DNA from: Sulfuricurvum sp.
GTDB lineage: Bacteria; Campylobacterota; Campylobacteria; Campylobacterales; Sulfurimonadaceae
DNA: 54,999 bases
NCBI RefSeq assembly: GCF_028712165.1
Contig: NZ_JAQTQR010000007.1
Span: 1-54,999, forward strand
Reading direction: 5' to 3'
The notes beneath the pieces were generated by a model that searched no databases, was not told where the DNA came from, and saw nothing but the letters and a program-made list of their open reading frames with translations. Below are positions 9,260 through 24,818 of this stretch, piece by piece (the stretch's first letter is position 1; every line of letters begins with the position of its first letter). Position numbers and translations under genes: made by a program.

Positions 9260-10294
9260 ATGAGCAAACGGCCTCGATCTTCCAAATCTCCTTTTTTAAA
9301 ATGGTTCACACTTTCTGTTTCTGTACTTCTATTAACGATTGCCGCTTCTTTGGTAGGTTATTTTATCGGGTTTCATCAGGTGCAAGACGAACTGATCTCC
9401 GAACGCAAACAGACGCAAAAGCTCATTGAACAGCTTCGCGAGCTTGCAGCTATCGATGAGAGCAACCTTACTTCCGTCCGATCAAAAGACACCACAAATG
9501 AGAATGAAATTCGCCGTCTTAAAAAAGAGCTGGAAGCTTTGCTAAAACGCGAGCGTGCGCATGAAGAGGTAAAGCCTCAACATGAATATGCACCTAATGA
9601 TAAAAAAGCATCTCCTCCCCCTCCTGAGGAACGTCCTCTGCGTCCTGCCGGATCGGAGGCAAAGCTGGTCATAATCATGGATGACGTATCGTATGCACAT
9701 GATGTAAAGGCGATCCAATCGACCGGATTGCCGCTCGTCATGTCATTTTTACCGCCGAGCTCACGCCATCCCGATTCTGCACTGCTTGCGAAGCAGCAGC
9801 GCATGTATATGGTCCATTTGCCTCTGGAAGCTGTGGCATTTAATGAGGTGGAACCTAATACATTGCACGTTGATAGCAGCGAAGATGAGATTGAAAAACG
9901 GCTCACTATATTGAAACAGCTTTATCCTCATGCACATTACATGAACAACCATACAGGCTCTAAATTTACCTCTGATCCTGAAGCTATGGACAGATTAATA
10001 CGTGTTATGCAAAAAGAGGGTCTGCAGTTTGTAGACAGCCGTACGATTGCCACAACAAAAGGGCGCGAAGCAGCGGCAAAATACGGGATGCGCTATTTAG
10101 TGCGAGATGTGTTTTTAGACGATCAAGACGGTGTTGAAAATGTCAAAAAGCAGATTAAAAAGGCGGTAGAAAAAGCCAAACTTTATGGTACCGCTATCGC
10201 AATCGGCCATCCGCGTGTCGACACGATTGAAGCACTCAAAGAGTCAAAAGATATTTTAAAAGAAGTAAAGCTGGTCAGTATAGAACAAATATGA
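9260..10294 (+). CDS. Divergent polysaccharide deacetylase family protein
   Basis: This 344-residue protein has an N-terminal membrane anchor (about 16-36) followed by a coiled coil (45-100) and a proline-rich linker (PPPPEERPLRP). The C-terminal half is a divergent polysaccharide deacetylase domain (DUF610/YibQ-like) with IIMDDVSYAHDV, the helix segment MNNHTGSKFTSD and IAIGHPRVDTIEAL. Members are secreted or periplasmic and sit near envelope genes. In related genomes this gene directly precedes dprA, as it does here before the transposon interruption. The enzymatic activity of the family is not established. Confidence 0.88.
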   Translation: MSKRPRSSKSPFLKWFTLSVSVLLLTIAASLVGYFIGFHQVQDELISERKQTQKLIEQLRELAAIDESNLTSVRSKDTTNENEIRRLKKELEALLKRERAHEEVKPQHEYAPNDKKASPPPPEERPLRPAGSEAKLVIIMDDVSYAHDVKAIQSTGLPLVMSFLPPSSRHPDSALLAKQQRMYMVHLPLEAVAFNEVEPNTLHVDSSEDEIEKRLTILKQLYPHAHYMNNHTGSKFTSDPEAMDRLIRVMQKEGLQFVDSRTIATTKGREAAAKYGMRYLVRDVFLDDQDGVENVKKQIKKAVEKAKLYGTAIAIGHPRVDTIEALKESKDILKEVKLVSIEQI

Positions 10295-10532: not shown

Positions 10533-10537
10533 AAAAA
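10533..10537. repeat. Left copy of 5-bp target-site duplication (AAAAA)
   Basis: AAAAA precedes the element's TGTCA terminus. The matching copy is at 24814-24818. Five bp is the duplication length made by Tn7-family transposases. Removing the element plus one copy restores the codons TCC AAA AAA CTG of dprA, as expected from the intact homologue on the element. Confidence 0.9.
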
Positions 10538-10590
10538 TGTCATTTCCAACAAAAAACGAGAATGTACATTTATTAGTGATAATGGAGGAG
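10538..10590 (+). repeat. Transposon left end with TnsB-like binding sites
   Basis: After the terminal TGTCATTTCC come two candidate TnsB sites: AACGAGAATGTACATTTAT (10555-10573) and AGTGATAATGGAGG (10577-10590). They resemble the right-end repeats (AATGAGAATAAATATACA and AATGATAATAAATTACA read inward). The first site starts about 18 bases in from the terminus, as at the right end. The left end seems to have fewer sites than the right, the asymmetry known for Tn7. The second site merges with the Shine-Dalgarno of the tnsE-like gene. Confidence 0.65.
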
Positions 10591-10596
10591 TTAGTC

Positions 10597-12285
10597 ATGG
10601 CTGATCTTCTTCAACACAAACCTGTCTTTTTTGATCAATATAGAAATCAGCCCTTAGAATTTATAGTTGTAACTGATATCAATATGATTGAGACACCCTA
10701 CAACTACAAGGGTATTTTTAAAAATATTAAAACAGGTAAGTTTCATTCATATGAGCTTGCCCCTGAAATGATGCGTTACAAGTATAAAATAGGTCATATC
10801 TACACAAATGGTGAGCATGTAGGGGAAAACAAGAGTCTGTTAAAAGGAGAGTTCCATATCAATGGCAACTATGTGCAACCACTTGTGCAAATCTCAACAG
10901 TGCTCACCGAAAATGATGTTGCGTTGATTAGCTATGGCGAAGTGAAAAAATACTATTTACGGCAGTTTGCACATGTCGAAATGCACGATGATTATACGTT
11001 GATTATTCCTTGCTATGCGATAGCTAATCGATTCTATTTTCTATCATCAGCATTTAAAAATGCAGCGATGCGAGGAGTGCTTGCTGACCTTTACTATGAA
11101 GGATCTTTTAGTACTGAATCTAAAGAAACTGGATCGTTATTAGCAAGATTTCATGCGAAAAAGAAAGCGAATAAAAAAGACATTCCATTTATTGCACGCT
11201 TTGCAGGAAGTACTTATGCTCAGTCGAGATTTAAGTATCTCACGTCACAAAGAAACAATAATAAGCCGTTTCAGCAAATTAGAGCACAGTTCCCAGTCAA
11301 AAATTCATTTGATATTTATGCTTCGTATGTATGTGTAGGAAATGATGAACGTGGACTACCTAAGTATGTTGTGTTAAATATCCACTCCGATAATTCATAT
11401 TTAGGATTTGAAGAGTTGCATTATAAGCAATATAGTGAAAAGCAAGATCCAAAAACAGTTGAACCGGAAAAATTGAATATTAAAAAGAATTCTAAAAAAC
11501 GGATTAAAAAGGTCAAAGCAACTCGGGATAATAAAATCTATGAAGGTACACCCTCCAATGATTATTTGCTTTATACGTTGTACACGCGAAGTGATGACGA
11601 ATATTATAAGAACAATATTAAAGTCATTAGTGAAACGATTTATCAGGGTAATGAAGCTGAAATTGTTTACACAAAAAGTGATAAGAAAATTGGTAATTCA
11701 CTAAAAGATGCTTCGAATGATGGTGATGAAAACCTTGGGCAAGCTCATGTTGTAAATGGAGAACTTGAAGAGAGTAGTGTAGAAAACGAAATTTTTAATC
11801 TTCAGGATTTTTATCAGTTTTATGAAGGGCTCTTGACGTATGCCGGTGTCGAAGGTGAACAATTAGTAGGACCATTTGAAATAAAAGCTGTATACAACAA
11901 AAATAGAAAAAGTATAAAAAGTAAGGCAATCTTATATGGAAAACAAGATCAGTCGAGAAAATTCTTATTCGGTCTTTTAAATTACAACAATAAATATGTT
12001 TATATTATTGAAATTGAGCATGATAGAGCTTGGGGTCCATCAACATGGATGTTTATTGCTCAAGAATCAGCAGAAATTTATACTTCTGACGAAATGAAAG
12101 ATTTGATTGAATATTACATTGAGAATGAGCCAACATACAAGCAATTTGAAGAGTATGTTTTTAATCAGTATAGATTAGTATTTGATCATAAGGATCATAA
12201 AAAAGGAGATGTGGGAGATGAAGAAATTGAGGGATGGTGTGAACTTGTGATTGCAAGAATTTTAAAGAATAATCATGGGAGATAG
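10597..12285 (+). CDS. Divergent TnsE-like transposition protein
   Basis: This 562-residue protein has length and landmarks like Tn7 TnsE (538 residues). IIPCYAIANRFYFLSSAF (136-153) corresponds to the Tn7 segment HIPQLELARSLFLINSYF, the region linked to sliding-clamp binding. After a variable charged middle (about 285-440), the C-terminus HKKGDVGDEEIEGW (about 534-547) parallels HPKGLGELQVSREDMEGW of Tn7 TnsE. The C-terminal domain of Tn7 TnsE binds DNA and steers insertion to replicating DNA and conjugal plasmids. ATG 10597 is preferred because GGAGGAG (10584-10590) sits 6 bases upstream; the open frame extends into the dprA stub. Unusually, it lies at the end opposite tnsABC. The match is by eye, not by profile search. 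Confidence 0.7.
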   Translation: MADLLQHKPVFFDQYRNQPLEFIVVTDINMIETPYNYKGIFKNIKTGKFHSYELAPEMMRYKYKIGHIYTNGEHVGENKSLLKGEFHINGNYVQPLVQISTVLTENDVALISYGEVKKYYLRQFAHVEMHDDYTLIIPCYAIANRFYFLSSAFKNAAMRGVLADLYYEGSFSTESKETGSLLARFHAKKKANKKDIPFIARFAGSTYAQSRFKYLTSQRNNNKPFQQIRAQFPVKNSFDIYASYVCVGNDERGLPKYVVLNIHSDNSYLGFEELHYKQYSEKQDPKTVEPEKLNIKKNSKKRIKKVKATRDNKIYEGTPSNDYLLYTLYTRSDDEYYKNNIKVISETIYQGNEAEIVYTKSDKKIGNSLKDASNDGDENLGQAHVVNGELEESSVENEIFNLQDFYQFYEGLLTYAGVEGEQLVGPFEIKAVYNKNRKSIKSKAILYGKQDQSRKFLFGLLNYNNKYVYIIEIEHDRAWGPSTWMFIAQESAEIYTSDEMKDLIEYYIENEPTYKQFEEYVFNQYRLVFDHKDHKKGDVGDEEIEGWCELVIARILKNNHGR

Positions 12286-12322
12286 ACTATAATATTTATT
12301 TACACATTTAAGAAGGATTTCA

Positions 12323-12646
12323 ATGAAAAATTATATAGCGATGTTGGATTATATTGAAGAAAATAATTTGAAAATGGATAGTTTTGGGAATTGCCAATTT
12401 CAAGCACTTGTAAAGTACAAAAGCTCAACTAATATTTTCTCTGAGATGACAGAAGTAAAATTTATACGAAATGGATATGATGATGGAAAAATAACAGTTT
12501 TTGAAAAAGGTGAATTAAAATCAGAAAATTGTTACCTCGAATATTCGGCTAGGTTTCAGAACTATAAATTTTCCCAAAAGGAGTTTATAATCGAAGGTTT
12601 TTCAAAGAAAGGGGTAAATTATACTGTTGAAATTACAAAAATATAA
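12323..12646 (+). CDS. Small cargo protein of unknown function
   Basis: This 107-residue soluble protein follows the tnsE-like gene by 37 bases, with AAGGA upstream of ATG 12323. It is rich in beta-prone, charged segments (LEYSARFQNYKFSQKEFIIEGF) and has no signal peptide, membrane helix or motif that I recognise. Its placement suggests cotranscription with the tnsE-like gene, but a link to transposition is only a guess. Composition is as AT-rich as the rest of the cargo. Confidence 0.6.
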   Translation: MKNYIAMLDYIEENNLKMDSFGNCQFQALVKYKSSTNIFSEMTEVKFIRNGYDDGKITVFEKGELKSENCYLEYSARFQNYKFSQKEFIIEGFSKKGVNYTVEITKI

Positions 12647-12711
12647 TCTTGATCAAGGAGAAGTTCAAATAGTTCCATCAGTTTAAAATTGAGTTCTCAT
12701 TATCAGTACTT

Positions 12712-12736
12712 CCTATAGAATATGAAATTCTATAGG
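12712..12736. terminator. Hairpin between convergent cargo genes
   Basis: A perfect 10-bp stem (CCTATAGAAT / ATTCTATAGG) with loop ATGAA lies between the ends of the 107-residue gene (+) and the 93-residue gene (-). Flanking CAGT/ACTG bases could extend it. Its position fits a bidirectional terminator, although T runs are weak. Confidence 0.55.
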
Positions 12737-12751
12737 ACTGACATGAAATTA

Positions 12752-13033
12752 CTAACACTCCTCAATGTCAAAGTTATATTTTTCCAGCAAATCTTTAGCG
12801 ATTGTATCTATTTGAGATGTTTCTGGAACTTGTGGTTCGTTAAGATAACTATGAAGATAAGTAATAGTATTTTCATCTGAGACATAATTTTCTGGATCAT
12901 TTCTCAAAATTTCCTTTTCTTTAACTAGACTCACTGCATCAGTTCTTGGAAGTCCTTTGTAAACAATATAGTATGCAGCCTCTTTGGCACGTTCCATATT
13001 GTTATATTCTTTAATTTTTTCATCGTAGTGCAT
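12752..13033 (-). CDS. Small acidic helical protein of unknown function
   Basis: This 93-residue protein begins MHYDEKIKEYNNMERAKEAAYYIVYKGLPRTDAVSLV and is predicted mostly helical. The central segment (AAYYIVYKGLPRTDAVSLVKEKE) has the feel of a small helix-turn-helix, and the C-terminus is acidic. I do not recognise a family. ATG 13033 was chosen over an ATG 30 bases upstream because GGGGAT precedes it at good spacing. It is convergent with the previous gene. An antitoxin or regulator role is possible, but no partner toxin gene is next to it. Confidence 0.55.
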   Translation of the reverse strand: MHYDEKIKEYNNMERAKEAAYYIVYKGLPRTDAVSLVKEKEILRNDPENYVSDENTITYLHSYLNEPQVPETSQIDTIAKDLLEKYNFDIEEC

Positions 13034-13645
13034 TGTATCCCCTTTTATTTTGTTATGTAGCAATCGTCGACTGTTACGGAAATTACTTTTAAGTGTTTAA
13101 TAAATCAGATGATTTTAATAAACAGTGATAATTTTTACTAAGATTAAATTGTGCTATTCGCACCACATAAGTAGAAGAATAATATAGGTCTTTATTTTAA
13201 CCGTCAGCATGACTTTGTAATCAGCATATAAATCATACCGTATTTGAAATTAAAACAGTGCTATAAATTTATCTGTAAATAAAGATTGGTAACATTTAAA
13301 ATAGACCGATCTCTTTTGATTAATAAAGGCGATGCGTGTATGAAGGAGGGGAGAATTTTTCATCTTCATGATGGAGCGATTCCTGCCTATAAAGAGAAAG
13401 ATTACGGCTGAGATCTCTATTAATAGATATTAGGTATGAGATTAATAATTTCTATTTATATAATTAAAATTGCAGTTAAATTTATCATTTTGGTTAAGAC
13501 AATATATATCGATTCGGTATATAGTATATATACTAAAATGATATATAGTTTTTTGATTTTCCACACAAAAAATTGACAATTAGACATAAAATTCTTTCAT
13601 ATTTTGATTATGGGTATACTCTAAAAAATACGTTATAGGTTTATC
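13034..13645. other. AT-rich cargo spacer
   Basis: This 612-bp stretch holds no convincing gene. It contains one short open fragment (13283-13411, listed separately). A run of TATATA-like inverted motifs lies at 13504-13552. TTGACA at 13573 and TATACT at 13615-13620 lie upstream of the element's dprA and may form its promoter region, but they are not at standard mutual spacing. The base composition is very AT-rich, typical of cargo junction debris. Confidence 0.5.
13283..13411 (+). pseudogene. Possible C-terminal gene remnant
   Basis: An open stretch of 42 codons reads in part LLINKGDACMKEGRIFHLHD and ends at TGA 13409-13411. The residues look protein-like and the local GC content is higher than in the surroundings. 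There is no start codon with a ribosome site at its beginning. It may be the 3' end of a gene whose remainder was lost. I cannot name a family. Confidence 0.2.
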
Positions 13646-14419
13646 ATGAATACGATTGAATATCATCTTTCCGAACTTGACGCGATGAAAAAATATCCCG
13701 AAAAATTGTATTACAAAGGTAATCTTGATTTATTAGACCGGCGAAAAGTATCCATAATCGGCAGTCGGAAACCAAATCAATATGCTCAACAGATGACACA
13801 TCGTTTAGCAAGTGAATTATCAAGGGTTGGGGTATGTATTGTAAGTGGTGGAGCAATGGGTGTAGACGCGATAGCGCATCGAGGAGCGGGAAATGATAGT
13901 ACGATCGCAGTTTTGCCTTGTGGGATCGATTTACGCTATCCAGCGGTCAATAAATCATTATTGGAAAGTATTGAGAATAGTGGCCTAACCATGAGTCAGT
14001 TTGATCCGGGATTTCAAGCAACTAACTGGAGCTTTGTAGTACGTAATGAGGTTGTTGTGGCACTGGGAGACGTATTGATCGTTACACAGGCTGATATTGA
14101 TAGCGGGAGCATGCGCAGTGTCGAATTCGCATTAGAGATGGGTAAGAAAATTTTTGTTCTACCGCATCGGATTGGTGAGAGTGAAGGAACTAATAGATTA
14201 TTAGCTGATGGAAAAGCCGAGGCTATTTATGACATCGATACTTTTGTAGGAAAATTCGGTATGGTAAATTCTGAGATTGATAAAAGTGACCCATTTATGT
14301 TGTTTTGCGCCACACGACCAACTTATGAGGAAGCGGTAGTGAAATTTGGGGATCGAGTTTTTGAGGCGGAGCTCAGTGGAAAAATCATTATTAAAAATAG
14401 TAGTATTGAATTAATCTGA
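13646..14419 (+). CDS. dprA: Transposon-borne DNA processing protein DprA (complete)
   Basis: This complete 257-residue DprA has the same short architecture as the host gene, with no N-terminal SAM domain. The Rossmann core has KVSIIGSRKPN, SGGAMGVDAIAHRGAG, GIDLRYPAVN and WSFVVRNEVVVALGD, followed by DSGSMRSVEFALEMGK. The C-terminus has the winged-helix-like tail PTYEEAVVKFGDRVFEAELSG. It aligns without gaps to the reconstructed host DprA around the insertion point (NQYAQQMTHRLASELSRVG versus NPYTRAITFELSKKLAYSG) but is clearly diverged. Because the host gene is split by this same element, this copy is likely the cell's only full DprA. It lacks the A6 tract at the position used as target in the host gene. 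Confidence 0.95.
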   Translation: MNTIEYHLSELDAMKKYPEKLYYKGNLDLLDRRKVSIIGSRKPNQYAQQMTHRLASELSRVGVCIVSGGAMGVDAIAHRGAGNDSTIAVLPCGIDLRYPAVNKSLLESIENSGLTMSQFDPGFQATNWSFVVRNEVVVALGDVLIVTQADIDSGSMRSVEFALEMGKKIFVLPHRIGESEGTNRLLADGKAEAIYDIDTFVGKFGMVNSEIDKSDPFMLFCATRPTYEEAVVKFGDRVFEAELSGKIIIKNSSIELI

Positions 14420-14490
14420 CACGAAGTTTCTAACACTCCCATTCATCCCGTGTATTTTTTAGGGAAATTGGAACTCTTTTCCCCCTGTTA

Positions 14491-16491
14491 TTAGTCTAAA
14501 AATGAATCAACTCGTTCTTCAAGCCACGTCATGCTGCCACGAAAACTTTGCATATCATAATCTTTGACATTTTTTGCATGGGCATCTGATCTTCCAATGG
14601 AGTTTAATATGGTCATGCGTGATTTGAATTTTTCAACATCAGTTTCAAAAATATTTTGGAAACAATCGATCCAATTTAAACGTATGATTTCAATTAAGTT
14701 ACTTAAATATATATCGTTTTTATCAGGATCAAAAAGTTCTTTTAATAAGAGTGTTTTATTTTTAGGATTAGTTATCTTCAATACTTTATTCTTTGCTTCA
14801 GTATCTCCAAATCTTGCTTTGAGCTGTTGTATCACTACTTTTCTAAGTTTGATTTCTATAGCGTTGCGTCTACTACCAATTTCAGTCCTTTTTTCTTCAT
14901 CTGTCAAATTTTGTTTCTGGTATTGATTCTTTTTTTCTAAATATTTTTTCAAAATATCCATTTTGAAATCATAACCGATTAAAGATTTTTCTAGAATTGA
15001 ATAACCTAAAAGGTGTTCAGTATATGTTGGATCATTTTTTGCAAAATAATTAAATTCATCTATGTCATTACGCGCGAGATATGTTAACATCATATATTCA
15101 TCATTGTAATATTCTTCCAATACGCCAATAATCATTTCACAATATTTATGCCCGATTGACTCATTGAAACGTTGGGTGTAATCTGCATATATTGAACGAT
15201 CAACTTTTGTAAAATTTTGTTTTCGTAATTCTGACCAAATATATGAACATGCTTGTCGAATTAAAAAAGGATGACCGCCGTATTCACGAGTTAGATACGT
15301 ATAAGTTTCTTCTTCAAAAGTTATACCCATATAATTAGCTAGCGTTTTTACCATTACTTTTGTTTGATCGACTTGAAAACTTTCTATGTAGCGACATTTA
15401 ATTTGATGGTAAAGTGGATTATCAACTTTATTGATGAATGGTGTTTCAATACATTTAGGATTAGTTCCTGCTATCAGAAAAGTTATAGGATTGTCCAATT
15501 TTTGATAAAGACCACGCAAAACTTGCCAAAATTTTATATAATCATCACCTGTTTTCCAGTATTGTGAAATTGATATGCCAAAAGTTAGATGCTCAATTTC
15601 ATCAAAAATTAATAAAATTTTTGCATTATTTTTATTGATTTTTCTGTTTAATTTCGAGATATCATTTTCAAATTGCATTGCAGCATTTTCTTCAGTATAT
15701 TTTTCAATGTCGATCTGCATTTTTATAGTGTGCTCTTTATTTATAGTGTGAATAATATAGTAAAGAGCACGCCACCAACGGTTTAAATGCAGCTTTTGGC
15801 AGTCTATAATAGTTGCATACGCATTTCTTTTTTTCAAAATGCGTTTAATTGAAAATAGTATAGAAGTTTTACCACTTCTTCTTAGTCCAAATATTCCAGC
15901 ATTTGTATTGCTTATATGGGCATCTACTAATTCATGGCATATATTTTCTCTAGCAAAAAAATAAGTATCCTTTCTGAGGGGCGATTCAAAATCAAATAAA
16001 TTTCTTTCAAAAAAGTATTTTTTAATTCTTTCAATAAAAAAATTGCTATTTTGTTGTGATAAAAGTTCATGGTATGTAAATGGGATTATGACACTAGATT
16101 CGTTGTTACTTTGTATAAGAGTATCGATTTTAGAAATAAAATCAATATCATTACTCGCTATGAATGTACATATTTTGTCTAATCTAAATCCTGAATTTTC
16201 ATTTAGAATATTTTCTATTGCATCGATTGTTCGTGGTTCAAAATTTTCAAATCCACTTAAAAGAAAGATCATTTCATTTTCAATACCAAATACTTTGCTT
16301 TTTAAATCTGGAAACTTAATGAATGCGTAGTTGTAAGTGCTTGAACCAATTCGAATATATTTTAGTGTTGAAATATAAAATTCTTGACCAAGTTGATTTA
16401 AGATTTTATATTCATCAGGTGAACAAAACTCTTTCATATTTTCTTTAGCGTGTGGGTGTATACCCGAAGATACGGTAATAAGGCTAATCAT
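14491..16491 (-). CDS. Cargo AAA-family ATPase with Swt1/HEPN-like C-terminus (putative defence)
   Basis: This 666-residue protein is convergent with the element's dprA. Residues 1-170 form an N-terminal domain that I do not recognise. The ATPase core has Walker A GLRRSGKTS (202-210), Walker B LLIFDEIEH (293-301) and a sensor-like FLIAGTNP (338-345), followed by a winged-helix-like part (GGHPFLIRQACSYIW). This is the Orc1/Cdc6-like ATPase layout common in STAND-type immune proteins. The C-terminal 130 residues are helical and end with a segment holding GRSDAHAK, reminiscent of HEPN or Swt1-like domains. Defence is inferred from architecture and location. All ATPase motifs are intact. Confidence 0.75.
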   Translation of the reverse strand: MISLITVSSGIHPHAKENMKEFCSPDEYKILNQLGQEFYISTLKYIRIGSSTYNYAFIKFPDLKSKVFGIENEMIFLLSGFENFEPRTIDAIENILNENSGFRLDKICTFIASNDIDFISKIDTLIQSNNESSVIIPFTYHELLSQQNSNFFIERIKKYFFERNLFDFESPLRKDTYFFARENICHELVDAHISNTNAGIFGLRRSGKTSILFSIKRILKKRNAYATIIDCQKLHLNRWWRALYYIIHTINKEHTIKMQIDIEKYTEENAAMQFENDISKLNRKINKNNAKILLIFDEIEHLTFGISISQYWKTGDDYIKFWQVLRGLYQKLDNPITFLIAGTNPKCIETPFINKVDNPLYHQIKCRYIESFQVDQTKVMVKTLANYMGITFEEETYTYLTREYGGHPFLIRQACSYIWSELRKQNFTKVDRSIYADYTQRFNESIGHKYCEMIIGVLEEYYNDEYMMLTYLARNDIDEFNYFAKNDPTYTEHLLGYSILEKSLIGYDFKMDILKKYLEKKNQYQKQNLTDEEKRTEIGSRRNAIEIKLRKVVIQQLKARFGDTEAKNKVLKITNPKNKTLLLKELFDPDKNDIYLSNLIEIIRLNWIDCFQNIFETDVEKFKSRMTILNSIGRSDAHAKNVKDYDMQSFRGSMTWLEERVDSFLD

Positions 16492-16651
16492 AAATCACTC
16501 TTTTTATAAATGTCAAAAATTATACAACAACATTTAAATATTTTAAATTTTTTAAAATCGGTTGGTGAATCATCATTGTAAGTATCAGTCACATAAAAAT
16601 TTCGACTTCAATTAGGTGTTTTTCCAAGTTCAATGTATCTTTTCCAAATTT

Positions 16652-16690
16652 TTGATCATCCCTTTATAGTGTATTGTGCGAGATGATCAA
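16652..16690. repeat. Inverted repeat abutting the dprA remnant
   Basis: TTGATCATC (16652-16660) and GATGATCAA (16682-16690) are perfect 9-bp inverted arms with a 21-base spacer. The right arm ends two bases before the homology to dprA begins at 16693. It could be a hairpin, an operator for the GHKL gene, or the scar of a recombination event that joined foreign DNA to the dprA 3' end. Confidence 0.5.
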
Positions 16691-16692
16691 GT

Positions 16693-16788
16693 TACGAAGA
16701 AGCGGTAGTAAAATTTGGAGATCGAGTTTTTGAGACAGAACTGATGGGATTAGTTCATGTAAATAATGGAGTCATTAATCTCGAATAA
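16693..16788 (+). pseudogene. dprA: dprA 3'-end remnant (third dprA copy)
   Basis: In frame from 16693 the sequence encodes YEEAVVKFGDRVFETELMG and twelve further residues, ending at TAA 16786-16788. This matches the C-terminal tail of the element's complete DprA (YEEAVVKFGDRVFEAELSG), with about four fifths of bases identical over the first 57 bp by eye. The tail after that is different from both other copies (GLVHVNNGVINLE). There is no start codon and nothing of the Rossmann domain. Together with the end of the full copy (to 14419) it brackets the AAA ATPase gene as direct repeats. Confidence 0.85.
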
Positions 16789-16912
16789 AATATGAAATAA
16801 TGCAATATATTAGAAGTAATTTATCAAAATCTTATTTATCATATATTTTAGTATAAAAACATAAAGCTAATTCGCAATATAATCAGTTATAACAAGATTA
16901 GGAGTGTTTATT

Positions 16913-18547
16913 GTGGCAAATGTTAAGTTTAATGTTGGTGATAATGCAGTAATTCAATTAGGTGAAAATTTATACAAAAACATATATGGAGTTTTAATAG
17001 AGTATATTACAAATTCATATGATGCTGATGCTTCTATTGTTGAAATCAAGATTGACAGAACCAAAAGGTTAATAATGATTTCTGACGATGGCACCGGTAT
17101 GACACACGCCGAACTACATAGTGTTTTTTTAGATGTTGGACTTAACAGAAGGAGACAACTCAATCTAACACCAAAGCGTAGGCTAGTAACTGGTAGAAAA
17201 GGATTTGGAAAATTAGCATGTTTTGGTTTGTTTGAGAGTTTTATTGTAGAAACTGTAAAAAATAATCTATTTAGTAAATTAGAAATCACTACTGGAGAAA
17301 ACGAGTTTGGTGAATTTAATTATACTGCTAACATAAATGATAAAGCAAAAAAAGTTAACCAAGAGAATGGAACTAAAATTTATTTGATTAATAATACCCA
17401 AGAGATTACAGATAATAAATCATTAGCTGAGTCAATTGCTAAGCGAATTAATCTTATGTATGATGCTAATCAATTTGATCGAGATGGTTTTAAAATAAAG
17501 TTAGAAGATATTACTATTGATAAAACATATAGAAATAGTATAGTTTTGAATACAGATATTAAGTTTAAATACAATATCCCTGAAGATTTAAAAAGATTTA
17601 CAAAAGACAAAGAGCTTATTAAGTATATAGAAGAAAATAAAATCAATGGTGTTGTAATAGCACGTGAGAAGACCGTTCGTATAAAAGAAAATAAAGGTAT
17701 TGTATTATTTGCTAGAGGTAAATTGTGTCAAGAAGCAACTTATTTAGATATTAATCCATCCAATAACTATGGATATGCACATTTATATGGAGAATTTAAT
17801 GTTGATTTTATTGACAATGAGAGTAAAGATAATATTGGTACCGATAGAACAGCTTTAAAAGAAACAGAAACAACGTTAAAATTATTTGAAGTTATTGAAA
17901 GTTTAATGAAAGCGTATGCAAGATTATATGATGAAGATGAACGTGCAAGAAAAGAAAATGCAATTGAAGAGTTTAAAGGTGACGATAAATATAAAGTAAT
18001 TACAAAAACTATTGAATCTATTAAAGACTTAAGTTTAAGAAAAGAACTATTTAAACTTTTCCAAATAAAAATAAAAAATAGTGTAACAGAAAATATTATT
18101 GATGTGGAAGACATAGAAAACTTTGAAAAAGTTGCAAACTCAATTATGTCATATAATCTACAGTCAGAACAAATTAGCAAGGATGAATCTAAAGACAATG
18201 TGATCACTTCATACGATTACTTGATTGCATATTTACGAAATAAATACACATACACTGGTAATGATGGTGTTGATATTATGAACTTTTTATATGGACAAAA
18301 CAACCAAAATGTAGAATATTCAGCTTTATCACTAAGAACAACACACACTGTAAAAGATGACATAAAAAAATCGATGAGAGAACTTGGTAATGCGATTGTG
18401 AACTTACGAAATTCTATGATGCATACAAATGATAGAGAATGTATTAATACAAATATTTCAATTGAAAATTCAAAAAGATTTTTGGTAATGGTGGATCTTT
18501 TTATTGAATTAGATATTTTGTTTTTTATTCCTATTCCTATTCCATAA
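16913..18547 (+). CDS. GHKL (MORC-like) ATPase with HEPN-like C-terminus
   Basis: This 544-residue protein has an N-terminal GHKL ATPase fold: N-box EYITNSYDADA (30-40), G1 DDGTGM (58-63) and G2 GRKGFGK (94-100). This is the layout of MORC, MutL and Hsp90-type ATPases. The C-terminal part is helical, and LRNSMMHTND near residue 505 fits the R-N-x-x-x-H pattern of HEPN nucleases. GTG 16913 is preferred since GGAG sits 8 bases upstream; a second GTG nine bases earlier overlaps that site. It converges with a C5-methyltransferase gene, with 39 bases of overlap. Such ATPase-methylase neighbours suggest a restriction-type defence, which is an inference. Confidence 0.8.
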   Translation: MANVKFNVGDNAVIQLGENLYKNIYGVLIEYITNSYDADASIVEIKIDRTKRLIMISDDGTGMTHAELHSVFLDVGLNRRRQLNLTPKRRLVTGRKGFGKLACFGLFESFIVETVKNNLFSKLEITTGENEFGEFNYTANINDKAKKVNQENGTKIYLINNTQEITDNKSLAESIAKRINLMYDANQFDRDGFKIKLEDITIDKTYRNSIVLNTDIKFKYNIPEDLKRFTKDKELIKYIEENKINGVVIAREKTVRIKENKGIVLFARGKLCQEATYLDINPSNNYGYAHLYGEFNVDFIDNESKDNIGTDRTALKETETTLKLFEVIESLMKAYARLYDEDERARKENAIEEFKGDDKYKVITKTIESIKDLSLRKELFKLFQIKIKNSVTENIIDVEDIENFEKVANSIMSYNLQSEQISKDESKDNVITSYDYLIAYLRNKYTYTGNDGVDIMNFLYGQNNQNVEYSALSLRTTHTVKDDIKKSMRELGNAIVNLRNSMMHTNDRECINTNISIENSKRFLVMVDLFIELDILFFIPIPIP

Positions 18548-19576
18548 TTGTGAAGTAAGAGCATAAACAATGGTTTCACCAACGGCTTTTGACAAATTAA
18601 CTGGTACAGCATTGCCAATTTGTTTTGCTATTTCTGTTTCACTGCCAAAAAAATTATAATTTGCTGGAAATGATTGAATGAGAGCTCCTTCCCTAAGAGA
18701 TAAAGCTCTATCTTCTTCAGGATGACCAAATCTTCCACTGTAGTATTGATTGAATTTTGTTGTAATTGTTGAGCTTAGACTGTTCCATGCTAATCTGCCA
18801 TAATTATCTAAAAATACTTCTTTTCTTGCGTGACATGGTACTTTCAACTCATTACTCCAAACAGAACGTAAACCACCATTTTTAGGTGTTGCTTTTATTC
18901 TTTTTAAATTAATTTCATTAAGTGTTTTAGATTTATGTAAAGGATCAGTTTCTGAGGGCTGGTCGTGATTGATAGACTCAAGATGGTAAATTACATCTTT
19001 TAGTGTAATAGGTGTTTTGTAATGAAGATTTTCAAAGGAAAGGTTTATCTTTTTTAATCTTGTAGCAATAAGAAATAATCTTTTTCGATTCTGTGCTACA
19101 GAAAAATTTTTGGCATTTAAGACTTTGTATTCAAGTTTATAGCCATTAAGCTCAAGCATTTCAATAAATTTTGCAAAAAAAGGGTTCTCTTCATTCAATC
19201 TACTAACATTTTCCATTAATACAAAGTGAGGCCTAACTCCTTTAATGATTCTTCTAAATTCATCAAGAAGTGTTTTTCTATCATCGTCTTGTTTTTTTCT
19301 AGTATTTATCATACTGTATGGCTGACAAGGTGCACATCCTGCAATCATTGTAAAATCGTTTTTTGAAATATTACATAAAAAGAGTTCTTTGATTTCTTTT
19401 GCAGTTATTTCAACAATACTTTTATTAATAAATTTTGCTTTGTTATTATGCTCATATGTTTCTTTGCATGAACTTTCTATATCAACACCGGCGAATACAT
19501 CAATTCCAGATAACCTTAATCCATGAGTTAAACCACCTGCACCACAAAAAAAATCTATAGCTTTAATTCTTTTCAT
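18509..19576 (-). CDS. DNA (cytosine-5)-methyltransferase
   Basis: This complete 355-residue m5C methyltransferase has motif I DFFCGAGGLTHGL (8-20), motif IV GCAPCQPYS with the catalytic Cys84, motif VI ENV (122-124) and motif VIII QNRKRLF (162-168). A target-recognition region (about 190-270) precedes motif IX around LREGALIQSFP and motif X KQIGNAVPVNLSKAVG. It transfers a methyl group from S-adenosylmethionine to cytosine C5. The start ATG 19576 has GGAG upstream and overlaps the DUF6471 gene by 14 bases. No separate restriction endonuclease gene is recognisable beside it. The recognition sequence cannot be read from the protein. Confidence 0.96.
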   Translation of the reverse strand: MKRIKAIDFFCGAGGLTHGLRLSGIDVFAGVDIESSCKETYEHNNKAKFINKSIVEITAKEIKELFLCNISKNDFTMIAGCAPCQPYSMINTRKKQDDDRKTLLDEFRRIIKGVRPHFVLMENVSRLNEENPFFAKFIEMLELNGYKLEYKVLNAKNFSVAQNRKRLFLIATRLKKINLSFENLHYKTPITLKDVIYHLESINHDQPSETDPLHKSKTLNEINLKRIKATPKNGGLRSVWSNELKVPCHARKEVFLDNYGRLAWNSLSSTITTKFNQYYSGRFGHPEEDRALSLREGALIQSFPANYNFFGSETEIAKQIGNAVPVNLSKAVGETIVYALTSQLWNRNRNKKQNI

Positions 19577-19823
19577 TATTAACTCCTATTTCTATATTAT
19601 TTGTATCAAAATTGATATGCATTACATCAAGGACATACATGCATTGAAAGAAAAAATTTGCACTAAAATTTGCTCTAGATATTTTGTTGTTAAAAGATTG
19701 TTCATTTAGTGAGATATTAAATGTTTTCTTTAGAAGTTCACAAATCTTTTTTGTGGTTACTCTTCTTTCTCTCATCACAGCCCTCAGTTTATTGCTAGCG
19801 TAGTCATTTAGCTTAACTTTCAT
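19563..19823 (-). CDS. DUF6471 helix-turn-helix-like regulator
   Basis: This 86-residue protein reads LNDYASNKLRAVMRERRVTTKKICELLK and then FNNKISRANFSANFFFQCM. It fits the DUF6471 pattern, a small Xre-like domain with 'KIsRg.Fs..FflQ' in its second half. Such proteins are typically encoded just upstream of methyltransferases. The overlap with the methyltransferase start points to one transcript, so a control (C-protein) role in setting methyltransferase levels is plausible. The 17-bp palindrome 45 bases upstream is a candidate binding site. The family call is from memory of its consensus. Confidence 0.7.
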   Translation of the reverse strand: MKVKLNDYASNKLRAVMRERRVTTKKICELLKKTFNISLNEQSFNNKISRANFSANFFFQCMYVLDVMHINFDTNNIEIGVNNEKN

Positions 19824-19867
19824 TACAAAATATCGACCTTAATATTTAGTTTATCTATTGTATCTAT

Positions 19868-19909
19868 ATTAGTATTATTATACTCTTAAAAAAGTATAAT
19901 AATACTAAT
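19868..19909. promoter_or_regulatory. Perfect 17-bp palindrome upstream of the methyltransferase operon
   Basis: ATTAGTATTATTATACT (19868-19884) and AGTATAATAATACTAAT (19893-19909) are perfect inverted arms around the 8-base spacer CTTAAAAA. The site lies between the tniQ stop (20041) and the DUF6471 start (19823), both on the minus strand. It has almost no GC and no T run after it, so an operator for the DUF6471 protein, or a weak terminator for tniQ, is more likely than a strong intrinsic terminator. Confidence 0.6.
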
Positions 19910-19930
19910 TAATGAGTATAAAATGTACAT
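19904..19930 (+). repeat. Internal TnsB-like site
   Basis: CTAATTAATGAGTATAAAAT (19905-19924) is followed by GTACAT. Read inward from the true right terminus, the element has CTAATTAATGAGAATAAATATACAT, and the left end has CGAGAATGTACAT. The similarity suggests a TnsB-binding site at the boundary between cargo and the tns operon. Its orientation is that of a left end. No TGTCA terminus is evident 12 bases further out, so it may be a decayed former end or a regulatory site. Confidence 0.5.
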
Positions 19931-20040
19931 ATATTTTCAGTGAGAAACATCAACGTAGTTATGATAAAAAAAGATTTTATTGATTGAGATTAATTTACTA
20001 TATAAGAAAATATAGCTTGTTGGTGAGTTTATAAAAATAC

Positions 20041-21180
20041 TTACAAAGGTGTTTGGAATATATTGCTACCAAGCTTATTATGATAAAAGTCACATTGAAA
20101 TAATTTTTTCAAAATTATTTTATTGACGATAATCCCTTGGATTGTTAGCCATTTAGCTGCATTTTGGATCTCTTGTAATGTTAATAAGTCAGATGTAAAA
20201 CACGTTTGTGCTGCCACTTTATCCAAAAGTTTTTCATACCAAAACGCTCTTTTTTTCAACTCTTTCGTAAGTAGCCAATGAGTGAGAGCATTCGCTTTTA
20301 CAAAGCGATCAAAATTCCTTGGATAGTGGTTAAACAACTCTATAATCGCTGACAAGATAATAACTTGCTGTGGGATACTAAGTTCACGAATGACAGGTTG
20401 GGTTTTGGTAAAACGGGTTCTTTTGGCGATATTCTTGATCTTTGCTTGATGATCGATAGACTCATTCTTTTTGTAGACAAGTATCAATTTGGCAAGTTGT
20501 ACAAAGACCTCAAAAAATAAAAATGAGTAGATTGGTATTTTATTGAAAACTATGTAGCCTCTTTTGCGAATTGACTGTATTCTGTGCATTCGTTTGAACG
20601 CTAAATCAAATGTTTTCGGTACTGTCAACTTTCGTGCCTTTCGCAGATCGAATCCGCATTTGTGACAAAATACATACGGCAAAGTATTGCGATACATATG
20701 GGTAATTTTGAGCAATGTATTGCATGAAGGACAGCGATCATAAAGATAGCAGTGATGTTTGAAGCAAACCGTCGAGAATAGAACTTTCCAACTTTTGCGA
20801 TAATATGGAAAGTGATCCTCTCGTAGACATACTGGACAGAAACGCTGAGGAACGATAAAGGTATTTAGGCCATCAGGTATAATTGATTCTTGAAGATAAC
20901 TCTCATAGGATTTGAGACTCATCTGATATATGGTTTCAAAGCTAAGAGCACTTTTTTGTTCGATGATATGTAGGATAGCATCCGATACCGAGGCATCAAA
21001 GTTAGGTCTCCAGTTGAATTTTCCGGTAGAGAAGTGCATATTCATAAATGTTTTGGGATGAGTTAAATGAGCGTATGCCGTTCGTGCAAGCCATGAGCTG
21101 AGGATTTCGTCCGGGAGTGGTTTGGGAATAAGCAAAAATCGCGAAGCAGTAACCGCCGGATTTTTGACTTTTTTGATCAT
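20041..21180 (-). CDS. TniQ/TnsD-family target-selection protein
   Basis: This 379-residue protein starts with LPDEILSSWLAR (22-33), the TniQ signature. A zinc-binding region follows with CPVC (115-118), CFKHHC (139-144), CPSC (150-153) and CHKC (172-175). The C-terminal half (180-379) is helical and could bind DNA. TniQ/TnsD proteins choose the target site and recruit TnsC. Its length lies between minimal TniQ and Tn7 TnsD (508 residues). It overlaps tnsC by four bases. Whether it recognises dprA is unknown, but it is the best candidate for the insertion choice seen here. Confidence 0.9.
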   Translation of the reverse strand: MIKKVKNPAVTASRFLLIPKPLPDEILSSWLARTAYAHLTHPKTFMNMHFSTGKFNWRPNFDASVSDAILHIIEQKSALSFETIYQMSLKSYESYLQESIIPDGLNTFIVPQRFCPVCLREDHFPYYRKSWKVLFSTVCFKHHCYLYDRCPSCNTLLKITHMYRNTLPYVFCHKCGFDLRKARKLTVPKTFDLAFKRMHRIQSIRKRGYIVFNKIPIYSFLFFEVFVQLAKLILVYKKNESIDHQAKIKNIAKRTRFTKTQPVIRELSIPQQVIILSAIIELFNHYPRNFDRFVKANALTHWLLTKELKKRAFWYEKLLDKVAAQTCFTSDLLTLQEIQNAAKWLTIQGIIVNKIILKKLFQCDFYHNKLGSNIFQTPL

Positions 21181-22112
21181 AACTGTTCGAGCATCGCGTT
21201 TTTCGAACGTTGATGTGGAGAGACGTAGTTGCAGGCGCGTATCTCGGTCAGGGTGATACGTTCGGATTTTGTTTCAATGGCGATCTTGGCAGCTTGGCGT
21301 AACAGATCGAACATATTGCCTATATAGCCGTCACTGAGTTCCAAAATCTCATCGGCCACGGCTTCATCGGTTAGTTTTGACTCATGTTTGAGCGGAAGGC
21401 GACTCGCATAAGTTGCTAAAAGACTTCCGAATTCATCATCGAATTGCCATTTAGGAAGATACATTGGCATAAAACGGCTCTCGATCTGAGGATCGGTATT
21501 TATTGCACTGAGAGCAGCTTTAGTGCCGGCAAGTACGATCGGGATCTGTAGCGCATTGGAGAGACTTTTGATGGCATTTAAAACCTGCTTTTGTCTGGCA
21601 ATAGAACCACTCAGGATATTATGTATTTCATCGATCACCAGCATCTCAACTTCGAGAAGTTTCAAATAGTATTGTACGAGGTATTGTTTTCGTACAACGG
21701 TTTCGGTCTCTTTATAGGGGACAGAAAGATTAGAGAGTATTTGGCTATAGAGTCGTGATTCGCTAGGTTCATTCGGTGCATCAACATGGACGACCGGAAT
21801 TCCGGCACCGGTATGGGTGTCGAAATAATCATTCGGTAGATTTGCCGGGCGTTCAATATTGTAGTCATAGGGTGGATGAAGTTCTGCAAATCGACTAATG
21901 ATCGAACTTTTTCCATTGTTTCCTTCACCCACAATAAGAAGACTGGTGATGCGAGGAAAGTTTTTTCCGTATTTGAAAAGTTCTTCGAGCTTGTCAAGCA
22001 TTAGTTTTGCTCTTGGGTAATTAATCCACCGGTATTGAAAAATAAATGCCATACGCTCTTCATCGGAGCTTTCAAGGAGATACTGATACTCTTTGGCCAA
22101 TAGATTATTCAT
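21177..22112 (-). CDS. tnsC: TnsC/TniB-family AAA+ ATPase, transposition regulator
   Basis: This 311-residue AAA+ ATPase has Walker A VGEGNNGKSS (61-70), Walker B LVIDEIH (158-164) and sensor 1 IVLAGT (192-197). It bridges the target selector (TniQ, possibly TnsE) and the transposase, and in Tn7-family elements it imposes target immunity. It is shorter than Tn7 TnsC (555 residues) and closer to TniB-like compact forms. The start ATG overlaps the tnsB stop, and its own stop overlaps tniQ, so tnsABC-tniQ is one translationally coupled operon. Confidence 0.93.
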   Translation of the reverse strand: MNNLLAKEYQYLLESSDEERMAFIFQYRWINYPRAKLMLDKLEELFKYGKNFPRITSLLIVGEGNNGKSSIISRFAELHPPYDYNIERPANLPNDYFDTHTGAGIPVVHVDAPNEPSESRLYSQILSNLSVPYKETETVVRKQYLVQYYLKLLEVEMLVIDEIHNILSGSIARQKQVLNAIKSLSNALQIPIVLAGTKAALSAINTDPQIESRFMPMYLPKWQFDDEFGSLLATYASRLPLKHESKLTDEAVADEILELSDGYIGNMFDLLRQAAKIAIETKSERITLTEIRACNYVSPHQRSKNAMLEQL

Positions 22113-23977
22113 GAATCTTTTCCCTCAGCTTTATATTCAACGACATCAAAAATCTCGATTTTTCCAAAGCTTCTTTTTCGAACCGGTTTTTCATTGGAAT
22201 CTTTCGTAAGTACATCTTCTGAAATAGCAGAAGGCTTTTTGACTGATGATGGTGGTGTCTGTTTTCGTAAACTATTAGTCGCTCGTTTGGCACTTTTTTC
22301 GATCTCTTCGAGGTTATGGTAGGCTCTAAAAATATCGTTTTCATCATAGTTTGTTTTGCGCTGATCTGCTAAAAGTCGTTTGATGGCTTGTAGCTCCCAG
22401 ATATTCATCGCCGGTGCACTCATGCGACGGTAAGGTACATCGAGATAGATATTTAGATTGGGGTCATAAACATGTATGCGACTGATATCCATGGGATCAC
22501 GTTTAATTTTTAGTTTGAGTTTTTGATCATTGGCATCTTTTCGATTCACAAAACGACGCAACGTATCGTCGTAATAAGTAATATCCTCTAAAGTGATTCC
22601 ATTGCGCTGTACGGTACGATAAAAAGTAGGAAGAAGCGATATGCGAATATGTTCATCATCTTCGATCATAGCGGGGAGAATACCGACTTGTGGATTGTTT
22701 TCATCTTCTTCGATACCGAATTGGTATCGTTGTAAAGGGGTGGTTTCAATTCCATGGTGATAGGTTTTATGATAAATATTGACAATGTACTGTGTCAACC
22801 ATTTTTCGAGTTCTTTGATAGTCAGAGAAGCTTGTTTTTCTGAATCATAGCTTCCACGTTCTTTGACATTGGAGAATGTTGCTCCCGGAAGATTATGTAT
22901 TTCTTTGTTAATTGTTAAGAAAATTCGTTCTATATTCCCCCCGAATTGAGGTCGTGCAACGGGGCGTTTTTCGATAGAGATACCGTATTCTTCACAGACA
23001 CGTTGAACTTCGCTCCCAACTAGCTCTGCACCATTATCGCTATGCAAAACACGTGGTGTACCATAGATGGGCCACTCGCCGTCGATATGAAGTTTTTTGA
23101 GATAACGTTCTTTTGGAAGAAAACATTGATAGAGGCATTGTCCAACGTTGAAAAAGCCAGGTCCTTGGAAAGAGAGGAAAAAGCCTGCAACCATTCGGCT
23201 ATAGACATCGATAGCCAGTGTGAGATAGGGTCTGCCGATCGGAAGTCGGCGAAGATCATCCACAAGGATGATATCAAGTGGTGTATGATCTATCTGATAG
23301 ACATCAAGAGGATAGTTACCATTTTTGAATTCGCCTGAAAAGTCACCATATTGAGATAAAGCGGTTTTGTAATTTTCTCGACGTTTGAGTAAATACATTG
23401 GATCGATCTCTTTGATCCGATTGCGAACGGTATTTTCACTAGGCACAGGGGTATTTTCATGAATACAAGCCTGCTTAATTTTCATATAGGTGCGTTTGAA
23501 AGAATGTTTTTGTTTTTTGAGATAGTAACTCTCAAGAAGCTCGTTAATGATCTTATTTGTATCCTTGGGAAGACGTTTTTTCTTGGGACCTCGCTTTTTA
23601 GTTTGCGGTATCAGCGCACTTAACGTCGGGTTAGACTCAAAAGCTGATAACCATCGATAAACGGTAGATTGTCCGACTTTGTGGGTAGATGCAATTTTTT
23701 GAATATCTGTGGCACTACGTTTAGTCCCTATCAGCGGTTTGATAATCTCCAACCTTTGTTTGGCTGTGTCCCATTCAAGCTCAGTGTGATCATTTAAATC
23801 GATAACGGGTGAGTCATTTTGAGGTTTCGTAGAGAGTTCAGTAATGGAAACGGATGCAACATTGCCATACTTTGCATGTTTGATATTGACTTTAGTGAGC
23901 CCATCGGCTCCAATTACCCTATACTCCTCATCGTCCCAATAGACGGTTGCACCATAACTAAAGTCTACTTTTGCCAT
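22109..23977 (-). CDS. tnsB: TnsB-family DDE transposase
   Basis: This 622-residue transposase cuts and joins the 3' ends of the element. A helix-turn-helix region (about 75-112, KVGQSTVYRWLSAF) precedes the DDE catalytic core. The triad is D230 in QIDHT, D314 in HSDNG and E350 in GGNIER, with the standard 35-residue second spacing. A beta-barrel and a basic tail follow. ATG 23977 is preferred because AAGGATTC lies upstream and it gives a 13-base overlap with tnsA; an earlier in-frame ATG at 24061 would lie 97 bases inside tnsA. The catalytic residues are intact. Confidence 0.95.
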   Translation of the reverse strand: MAKVDFSYGATVYWDDEEYRVIGADGLTKVNIKHAKYGNVASVSITELSTKPQNDSPVIDLNDHTELEWDTAKQRLEIIKPLIGTKRSATDIQKIASTHKVGQSTVYRWLSAFESNPTLSALIPQTKKRGPKKKRLPKDTNKIINELLESYYLKKQKHSFKRTYMKIKQACIHENTPVPSENTVRNRIKEIDPMYLLKRRENYKTALSQYGDFSGEFKNGNYPLDVYQIDHTPLDIILVDDLRRLPIGRPYLTLAIDVYSRMVAGFFLSFQGPGFFNVGQCLYQCFLPKERYLKKLHIDGEWPIYGTPRVLHSDNGAELVGSEVQRVCEEYGISIEKRPVARPQFGGNIERIFLTINKEIHNLPGATFSNVKERGSYDSEKQASLTIKELEKWLTQYIVNIYHKTYHHGIETTPLQRYQFGIEEDENNPQVGILPAMIEDDEHIRISLLPTFYRTVQRNGITLEDITYYDDTLRRFVNRKDANDQKLKLKIKRDPMDISRIHVYDPNLNIYLDVPYRRMSAPAMNIWELQAIKRLLADQRKTNYDENDIFRAYHNLEEIEKSAKRATNSLRKQTPPSSVKKPSAISEDVLTKDSNEKPVRKRSFGKIEIFDVVEYKAEGKDS

Positions 23978-24612
23978 AAAGAATCCTTTATAAGGGGGGA
24001 GTTCATTGAAAGTTTTTGGGTCAAGTCGATTATATTTGGATTTAATGCAATGAAATGCCATAGATAGGGGATAATTTTTCCATGACTTGAGCTATCGGTA
24101 TTTATCGCATATAAAAAATCGATAAGGGATATAGGGTCAGAAAGATTTTCATAGACGCTTTTAAAGCGTTCGTCAAATTTTTCTGTATTTTTCAAAAATG
24201 CGAATTTGTATAGGAACTTTAGATTTTGTAAATATATTGGATCAAATGTTGTATCGGTGAAAATCATGAAATTGTATTTGCCTTCACTCTCAATTTGATG
24301 GGTAATACAAGAAAGCTTTTGTCGTAATTCTTCATCACTATCAAGTTCATTTTTGTATTTAACTTCATAAACTGTCGAAGTGTTGTGATAATGAACGAGG
24401 GCATCTGGAGTATAAAAACGGTTGGAACCATCACATTCATACCGAAGTTTAAAAGGTTGCTCTTCGAATAAAACCACGGATGAATCGAATTCAAGAGTTA
24501 GAAAAAAATCATGTTCAAGTGTTGATTCAAATGCAAGTTGTTTCTTGTTCTTGCGACTCATAAAGTATCCGGTAACAGAGCGATAGCTCTTTTTAATTTT
24601 TCTGACTGCCAT
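23965..24612 (-). CDS. tnsA: TnsA-family endonuclease
   Basis: This 215-residue protein has a restriction-endonuclease-like active site: E33 in FESTLEHDFF, D70 in FYTPDALV, and E83/K85 in VYEVKYK (Tn7 TnsA has E63, D114, Q130, K132). TnsA cuts the 5' strands at the ends, which makes transposition cut-and-paste rather than replicative. The C-terminal region (about 130-215) would bind TnsC. It is the first gene of the operon, 201 bases from the right terminus. No Shine-Dalgarno precedes ATG 24612, which fits leaderless translation from the promoter noted upstream. Confidence 0.92.
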   Translation of the reverse strand: MAVRKIKKSYRSVTGYFMSRKNKKQLAFESTLEHDFFLTLEFDSSVVLFEEQPFKLRYECDGSNRFYTPDALVHYHNTSTVYEVKYKNELDSDEELRQKLSCITHQIESEGKYNFMIFTDTTFDPIYLQNLKFLYKFAFLKNTEKFDERFKSVYENLSDPISLIDFLYAINTDSSSHGKIIPYLWHFIALNPNIIDLTQKLSMNSPLIKDSLWQK

Positions 24613-24618
24613 GAGAAA

Positions 24619-24647
24619 ATATTACAACTTTTATAAAAAATTTGCAA
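24619..24647 (-). promoter_or_regulatory. Putative promoter of the tnsABC-tniQ operon
   Basis: On the minus strand TTGCAA (24647-24642) and TAATAT (24624-24619) are separated by exactly 17 bases. Transcription would begin very near the tnsA ATG, giving a leaderless message. The innermost TnsB-like repeat (24651-24674) lies directly upstream, so TnsB binding could repress this promoter, as is known for Tn7. Confidence 0.45.
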
Positions 24648-24650
24648 TAG

Positions 24651-24813
24651 TAATAAATTATCATTAATTAGTAGAAAATGTAATTTATTATCATTTTTAC
24701 TTGTATTTATTGTCATTATATATTTCCTCTATTTTCTCATTAAATAGGCACTTTTAAGTAGTTTTACGAGTATAATCATGTATATTTATTCTCATTAATT
24801 AGTGAGTATGACA
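24651..24813 (-). repeat. Transposon right end with five TnsB-like sites
   Basis: Read on the plus strand, five related copies of a TTATTNTCATTA word lie at about 24651-24674, 24682-24700, 24705-24722, 24731-24747 and 24785-24804. The end is TATGACA (24813). The inverted terminus TGTCATACTC matches the left TGTCATTTCC in its first six bases. Dense sites at the right and few at the left reproduce the polarity of Tn7 ends. The gap between the last two copies is larger than between the others. Confidence 0.8.
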
Positions 24814-24818
24814 AAAAA
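24814..24818. repeat. Right copy of 5-bp target-site duplication (AAAAA)
   Basis: AAAAA follows the terminal TGACA and matches 10533-10537. One more A (24819) belongs to the host gene, which had a run of six A at codons AAA AAA. Confidence 0.9.

Follow-up and report, generated by a model that had tools for sequence, protein, structure and literature searches.

A conserved half-site array before a DUF6471–methyltransferase operon in the cargo of a Tn7-like transposon of Sulfuricurvum

Introduction

A Tn7-like transposon of Sulfuricurvum sp. contains, close to the border between its cargo and its transposition genes, a long perfect palindrome next to a motif resembling a TnsB site, and the question is what such a segment does in the interior of the element. 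The DNA analysed, referred to here as the window, is a stretch of 54,999 nucleotides in which the segment lies near 19.9 kb. A first-pass annotation had proposed that the region is either a degenerate left end inherited from a smaller, ancestral element (tniQ–tnsCBA), with the stretch from 10.5 to 19.9 kb added later, or a switch controlled by TnsB or by the product of the nearby DUF6471 gene. Among the defence systems carried by Tn7-like transposons, restriction–modification (R-M) modules are the most frequent (PMC8649781). In this study, the segment was compared with the ends of the element and with the DNA around related DUF6471 genes. The feature is non-random, and its explanation is more ordinary than that first proposed and still useful.

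The Tn7-like element and its cargo border

The element (10538–24813) interrupts dprA and contains tnsA, tnsB, tnsC and tniQ between matching ends, with a 5-bp target duplication (AAAAA at 10533–10537 and 24814–24818) inside dprA, as expected of a Tn7-like transposon. Its parts are as follows.

10538–10600, no strand: left end, tip TGTCAT, common to L062
20041–21180, minus strand: tniQ (PF06527), with which the conserved tns module ends and whose stop codon is the cargo border
21177–24612, minus strand: tnsC, tnsB and tnsA (Pfam)
24619–24813, no strand: right end, tip ATGACA, with five TnsB-like repeats (AATGAKAATAAAT), doubling as the upstream region of tnsA

The tnsABC–tniQ module, the 5-bp target duplication and the multiple right-end TnsB-like repeats are shared with Tn7-like transposons that carry R-M cargo. 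The element differs in being inserted in dprA and in carrying its own dprA copy; the target-selector survey PMC10293859 does not mention dprA in its main text.

Two Sulfuricurvum relatives were available, L002 (TnsB 92%) and L003 (TnsB 90%); genome G397 holds L002 together with L062, and G398 holds L003 together with L061. TniQ is 85–88% identical among the window and its relatives. DNA homology to L002 and L061 ends at window positions 20063–20069, and each element has different cargo in the slot that runs from the dprA copy to the stop codon of tniQ. The border between cargo and tns genes that had been placed here is therefore real (19.9–20.07 kb). The window and L062 also share the left end, the neighbouring ORF (92% protein identity) and the intact dprA copy (92%); the dprA copy of L061 is 91% identical, and no N-part of dprA was found in the L061 stretch. 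Because L062 has left end, ORF and dprA copy in common with the window, the left side of the element is old, and swapping has been confined to the slot from the dprA copy to tniQ. This speaks against the proposed later addition of everything from 10.5 to 19.9 kb: the 19.9-kb border delimits a slot for cargo and does not mark a younger extension covering the whole left side.

Several observations concern dprA and the ends of the relatives. The intact copy carried by the element (13646–14419) matches ShosA in PADLOC; it could keep transformation working or serve defence. In both relatives, the C-part of dprA adjoins the right end and a dprA copy is also carried. A fragment of the dprA 3' end, 78% identical to that of the intact copy, lies within the cargo at 16660–16749, with an ATPase gene (14491–16491) between the two; this flanking arrangement suggests cargo exchange at dprA repeats. 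In L002, tnsA is separated from the dprA remnant by about 4 kb of extra cargo (L002 5160–9450). A TGTCATTTCC end lies near 5160 and a stretch resembling a decayed end near 9264, and the right end has apparently shifted outward.

One half-site array at 19.9 kb

Positions 19868–19909 form an inverted repeat with perfect 17-bp arms and an 8-nt loop (20-bp arms if scored at 95% identity), the longest perfect inverted repeat of the window. When the surrounding 5 kb were subjected to 300 dinucleotide shuffles, arms of 17 bp never arose, the best being 14. The components of the segment are as follows.

19871–19884, no strand: proximal dyad AGTAT-N4-ATACT, exact, starting at −61 from the DUF6471 start codon
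19893–19906, no strand: distal dyad AGTAT-N4-ATACT, exact, starting at −83
19902–19919, minus strand: extra half-site ATACTCATTAATTAGTAT, 5' of the distal dyad and facing it, the core of the TnsB-like motif

The two dyads, both within the inverted repeat, are the only exact copies of AGTAT-N4-ATACT in the window; they lie 22 bp apart, leaving a gap of 8 bp, and the 17-bp palindrome arises because adjacent dyads are near-identical and self-complementary. ATACTCATTAATTAGTAT is an ATACTC-N6-GAGTAT unit with one mismatch, located at −96. The TnsB-like motif, in which CTAATTAATGAGTATAAAAT begins at 19905 and the GTACAT end falls at 19930, had been described as adjoining the palindrome in left-end orientation. 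On re-checking, the sequence and coordinates of both were correct and the tip does point left; the two are in contact, but not merely adjacent, since five bases overlap. Palindrome and motif are one feature, a half-site array 5' of the operon of DUF6471 and a C5 methyltransferase.

Four close DUF6471 orthologues (62–70% identical) were found among 228 genomes of the family, L085 (G648), L086 (G546), L087 (G706) and L088 (G677); no match to TnsA, TnsB, TnsC or TniQ was found in the regions around them (L096–L099, 5–14 kb each). With the 218-bp intergenic sequence as a blastn query, the DNA upstream of L085 was matched at 4e-11, that of L086 and L087 at 3e-7 and that of L088 at 3e-6, and the alignment covers the two arms of the palindrome as well as the TnsB-like portion. 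Mean column identity across the dyad region is 73% in a MAFFT alignment. The dyads start at −82 and −60 in both L085 and L087, and at −84 and −62 in L086, where a third is found at −106; in L088 only the distal dyad, at −81, is well kept. Counterparts of the ATACTC-N6-GAGTAT unit with at most two mismatches lie at −95, −97, −95 and −94 in L085, L086, L087 and L088, respectively. Scored over 20 positions, the dyad pair with 22-bp spacing has 0 mismatches in the window, 1 in L085 and 2 each in L086 and L087; for each of these four, no equally good pair occurred in 1000 shuffles, and 22 was the best among spacings of 18–26. The pair in L088 is weaker (five mismatches, matched by 14 of 1000 shuffles).

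The array was not found at four more distant DUF6471 loci (L009, L007, L011 and L090), which would be expected only if those proteins read other sites. Among the 228 genomes, the array pattern with at most two mismatches, a threshold that misses G677 (L088), occurs at 13 places in 11 genomes, while a reversed control pattern has matches in four. Five of the 13 places, in four genomes, precede DUF6471; the other eight, in seven genomes, lie away from it and some are intragenic. AGTAT dyad arrays in L131, L139 and L142 adjoin an unrelated gene of 293–295 aa; judged by eye, this gene is possibly a replication initiator, and the arrays are perhaps iterons.

The DUF6471 protein and its operon

The genes that follow the array are listed below.

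19563–19823, minus strand: DUF6471 protein, 86 aa (Pfam PF20075, E 2.5e-15), a predicted helix-turn-helix controller
18509–19576, minus strand: C5 cytosine DNA methyltransferase (PF00145, E 6.5e-66; PADLOC MTase_II)
16904–18547, plus strand: GHKL-ATPase protein resembling a type II restriction enzyme (PF13589, E 1.1e-17; PADLOC REase_II, E 2e-20)

The DUF6471 gene ends inside the methyltransferase gene, and the two form one minus-strand operon 3' of the palindrome; the REase_II-like gene is convergent with the methyltransferase gene. A scan for sigma-70 promoters before DUF6471 in the window found no strong one.

An AlphaFold2 model of DUF6471, built from a 24-sequence alignment, reached a pLDDT of 90.3. 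The best Foldseek match was a phage CI repressor, the list being a mixture of the TP901-1 CI repressor, HipB, C.BclI and C.Esp1396I, none with E < 0.001. In VIA-align, the top six rows were all C.Esp1396I (Z 8.7–8.2 over 68–70 residues) and C.BclI followed at Z 7.8, near other XRE-type proteins, with the caveat that a Z of about 8 may arise from a common helical fold. When PDB chains were searched with a profile, the only matches, at E 0.11 and 0.56, were to proteins other than C proteins. The model supports a helix-turn-helix DNA-binding fold; to call the protein a controller takes more than the structural ranking. The literature searched yielded no paper that mentions DUF6471.

The neighbourhood provides a further line of evidence. 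A DNA methyltransferase adjoins DUF6471 in 19 of 25 other loci, a raw count in which L071 and L072 enter through their identity with L070 and L076 counts as weak, passing the threshold for one family out of two; none was found adjoining in L074, L078, L079, L080, L082 and L083. The Pfam neighbourhood scan left out the weak or partial DUF6471 matches L023–L027, L091–L095 and L101–L113 unless the gene had already been counted. Seven Pfam types of methyltransferase are represented: C5, Eco57I type, N6_Mtase, N6_N4, D12, MT-A70 and EcoRI type. Five DUF6471 loci are near Tn7-like genes (the window, L064, L065, L066 and L100). A plasmid search with DUF6471 gave one match, in Pseudoalteromonas (NZ_CP032092.1), with an N-6 methylase alongside. 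In L073 (6216–7405), an EcoRI-type methyltransferase directly follows DUF6471.

An operator read by DUF6471 as the preferred explanation

The segment at 19.9 kb is most likely the promoter–operator of the cargo R-M operon, autoregulated by DUF6471; on sequence comparison and the structural model, we put the probability of this reading at about 0.78. The array, its 22-bp period, its positional conservation and the methyltransferase neighbourhood are observed and the fold is modelled, while DUF6471 as the binder is what we infer from them. Dimers of the protein would bind the 14-bp AGTAT-N4-ATACT dyads, which are repeated every 22 bp, or about two helical turns. In the manner of C proteins, bound DUF6471 would control how strongly its own gene and the methyltransferase gene are expressed, through activation, repression or both, and such autoregulation may balance the levels of methyltransferase and controller. 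The TnsB-like motif is the half-site array extended one step upstream.

This arrangement can be compared with that of the C proteins C.Esp1396I, C.BclI and C.Csp231I. Both these and DUF6471 are small helix-turn-helix proteins (predicted in the case of DUF6471) encoded 5' of R-M genes, with two inverted-repeat operators before their own gene. For C.Csp231I, the operator given in the portion of PMC4321490 drawn on here is CTAAG-N5-CTTAG twice, with an 18-bp gap. However, the PDB search detected no sequence relation between DUF6471 and C proteins, and the half-site AGTAT/ATACT differs from GACT/AGTC or CTAAG/CTTAG, as do the 8-bp gap between dyads and the extra upstream half-sites. Furthermore, DUF6471 shares its operon with the methyltransferase, whereas the restriction-like gene is convergent, in contrast to C-protein systems. 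Several marks of an R-M controller are found together at this locus, namely linkage to methyltransferase and REase_II-like genes, paired inverted-repeat operators and a predicted helix-turn-helix, and DUF6471 is probably a new family of R-M controllers. The reading assigns a testable function to an uncharacterized protein family and supplies a concrete operator sequence. It would also account for how R-M cassettes on IS1595-type and Tn7-like elements might avoid harm to new hosts.

Other explanations of the segment

The segment might instead be a site at which TnsB binds and cross-regulates the R-M operon, or which partly interferes with transposition, a reading that we regard as unlikely. It is supported by the resemblance of the motif to the inner right end, with which it agrees in 24 of 27 aligned columns. 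The score is 37, whereas shuffles average 22 and 1 of 2000 does as well, and the next best of 499 window tiles scores 26. This resemblance, as first reported, is real, but it weakens against the whole 192-bp right end (7 of 500 shuffles as good) and against the orthologous right end of L003 (55 of 500). With a matrix built from 13 end sites, a single site at 19.9 kb scores an intermediate 9.6 bits and one overlapping it 9.2, whereas real sites score 16–20 bits under the full matrix. Under leave-one-out scoring, the internal site (7.5–11.2 bits) falls within the range of held-out real sites (5.4–16.2), an overlap that leaves the matrix unable to separate a single weak site from real ones. Comparable scores also occur at other places: a 10.9-bit site elsewhere in the element, two equal or better sites in 40 kb of flanking DNA, 9.8 bits upstream of L085, a locus with no tns matches, and 9.3 bits upstream of L009, in a genome with no TnsB match. 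In addition, the single weak site here compares with five in the right end. Of the TnsB- or DUF6471-controlled switch envisaged at first, the DUF6471 option fits best and TnsB control gains no specific support.

That the segment is the decayed left end of a smaller tniQ–tnsCBA element with later cargo is very improbable. The 24 matching columns lie in the correct inverted orientation at the border of the tns module, and ends in this family can move, as the outward movement of the L002 right end indicates. Against this, the TGTCAT tip is present at 10538 and, as ATGACA, at 24813 and not at 19.9 kb, where there is no target duplication either; the array that accounts for the sequence is also kept in loci without tns matches; and the real left end with its ORF and dprA copy is common to L062. 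The relatives likewise lack a site after tniQ: against four end sequences, the post-tniQ regions of L002 and L061 scored no better than shuffles, and the 16 distant relatives gave no match at p < 0.05 (the closest was equalled by 12 of 200 shuffles). A 10-base match after tniQ in L002, AATTAATGAG, was regarded as chance. With this false end removed, the element should be read as a single 14.3-kb unit.

That the segment ends the tns operon as a terminator or RNA hairpin is similarly improbable, and this was dropped as the main function. The minus-strand RNA folds strongly (−19.2 kcal/mol, z −6.6) and lies 3' of the tniQ stop, but its stem is A/T-rich with no T-run behind it and no terminator-like site was detected. 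The fold is not kept in L087 (z −0.7) or L088 (z −0.9), where the dyads are largely kept, and no tniQ was found at the L085–L088 loci.

Relatives of the cassette in IS1595-type transposons

Many DUF6471–methyltransferase loci sit inside IS1595-type transposons. The IS1595 transposase (Pfam) accompanies DUF6471 in L066, L067, L068, L074, L075, L098 and L100, and relatives of the cassette are bounded by inverted repeats beginning CGATATTATGTAGCA. L097 keeps one inverted repeat and a transposase remnant, and L096 has a frame-broken transposase. In having a transposase and inverted repeats, these relatives resemble IS1595-family transposons with passenger genes. The window cassette differs, as neither a remnant of the transposase nor convincing terminal inverted repeats were found around it, and an inverted-repeat-like match at 13053 with five mismatches was taken as chance. 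The window cassette is likely to come from an IS1595-type transposon with DUF6471 and a methyltransferase that lost its transposase and ends, an origin deduced from the relatives because the window holds no IS1595 parts. Nothing recognized as describing DUF6471-type cassettes was found in the IS1595 and passenger-gene literature searched.

A further dyad lies at −127 to −129 in L085, L087 and L088, within the 17-bp spacer of a TTGACA-N17-TATAAT promoter directed away from DUF6471 (exact in L087, one mismatch in L085 and L088). This promoter points to the transposase in L098, the region around L087, and to the broken transposase copy in L096, around L085. A wider reading, which we advance tentatively and hold to be possible at rather less than even odds, is that DUF6471 constitutes an undescribed R-M controller family that is carried with many methyltransferase classes by IS1595-type transposons and acts as a repressor of their transposase as well, the window copy being a cassette captured by the Tn7-like element. 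On the basis of the dyad inside the transposase-facing promoter, such a cassette may jump upon entry: in a naive cell, which has no controller, methylation and transposition would both be released.

Two further cases were observed among the relatives. In G207, three IS1595-type transposons carrying DUF6471 and a D12 methyltransferase (L070, L071 and L072) share an identical 4602-bp block with inverted repeats CGATATTATGTAGCAAA(C/T)GCACAA; an 8-bp duplication is clear at L071 and not so at the other two copies, and the three apparently represent a recently active mobile methyltransferase cassette. In L099 (1950–4876), DUF6471, a D12 methyltransferase and an HNH protein lie between IS1595-type inverted repeats with no transposase match, and this cassette is possibly a non-autonomous mobile R-M unit.
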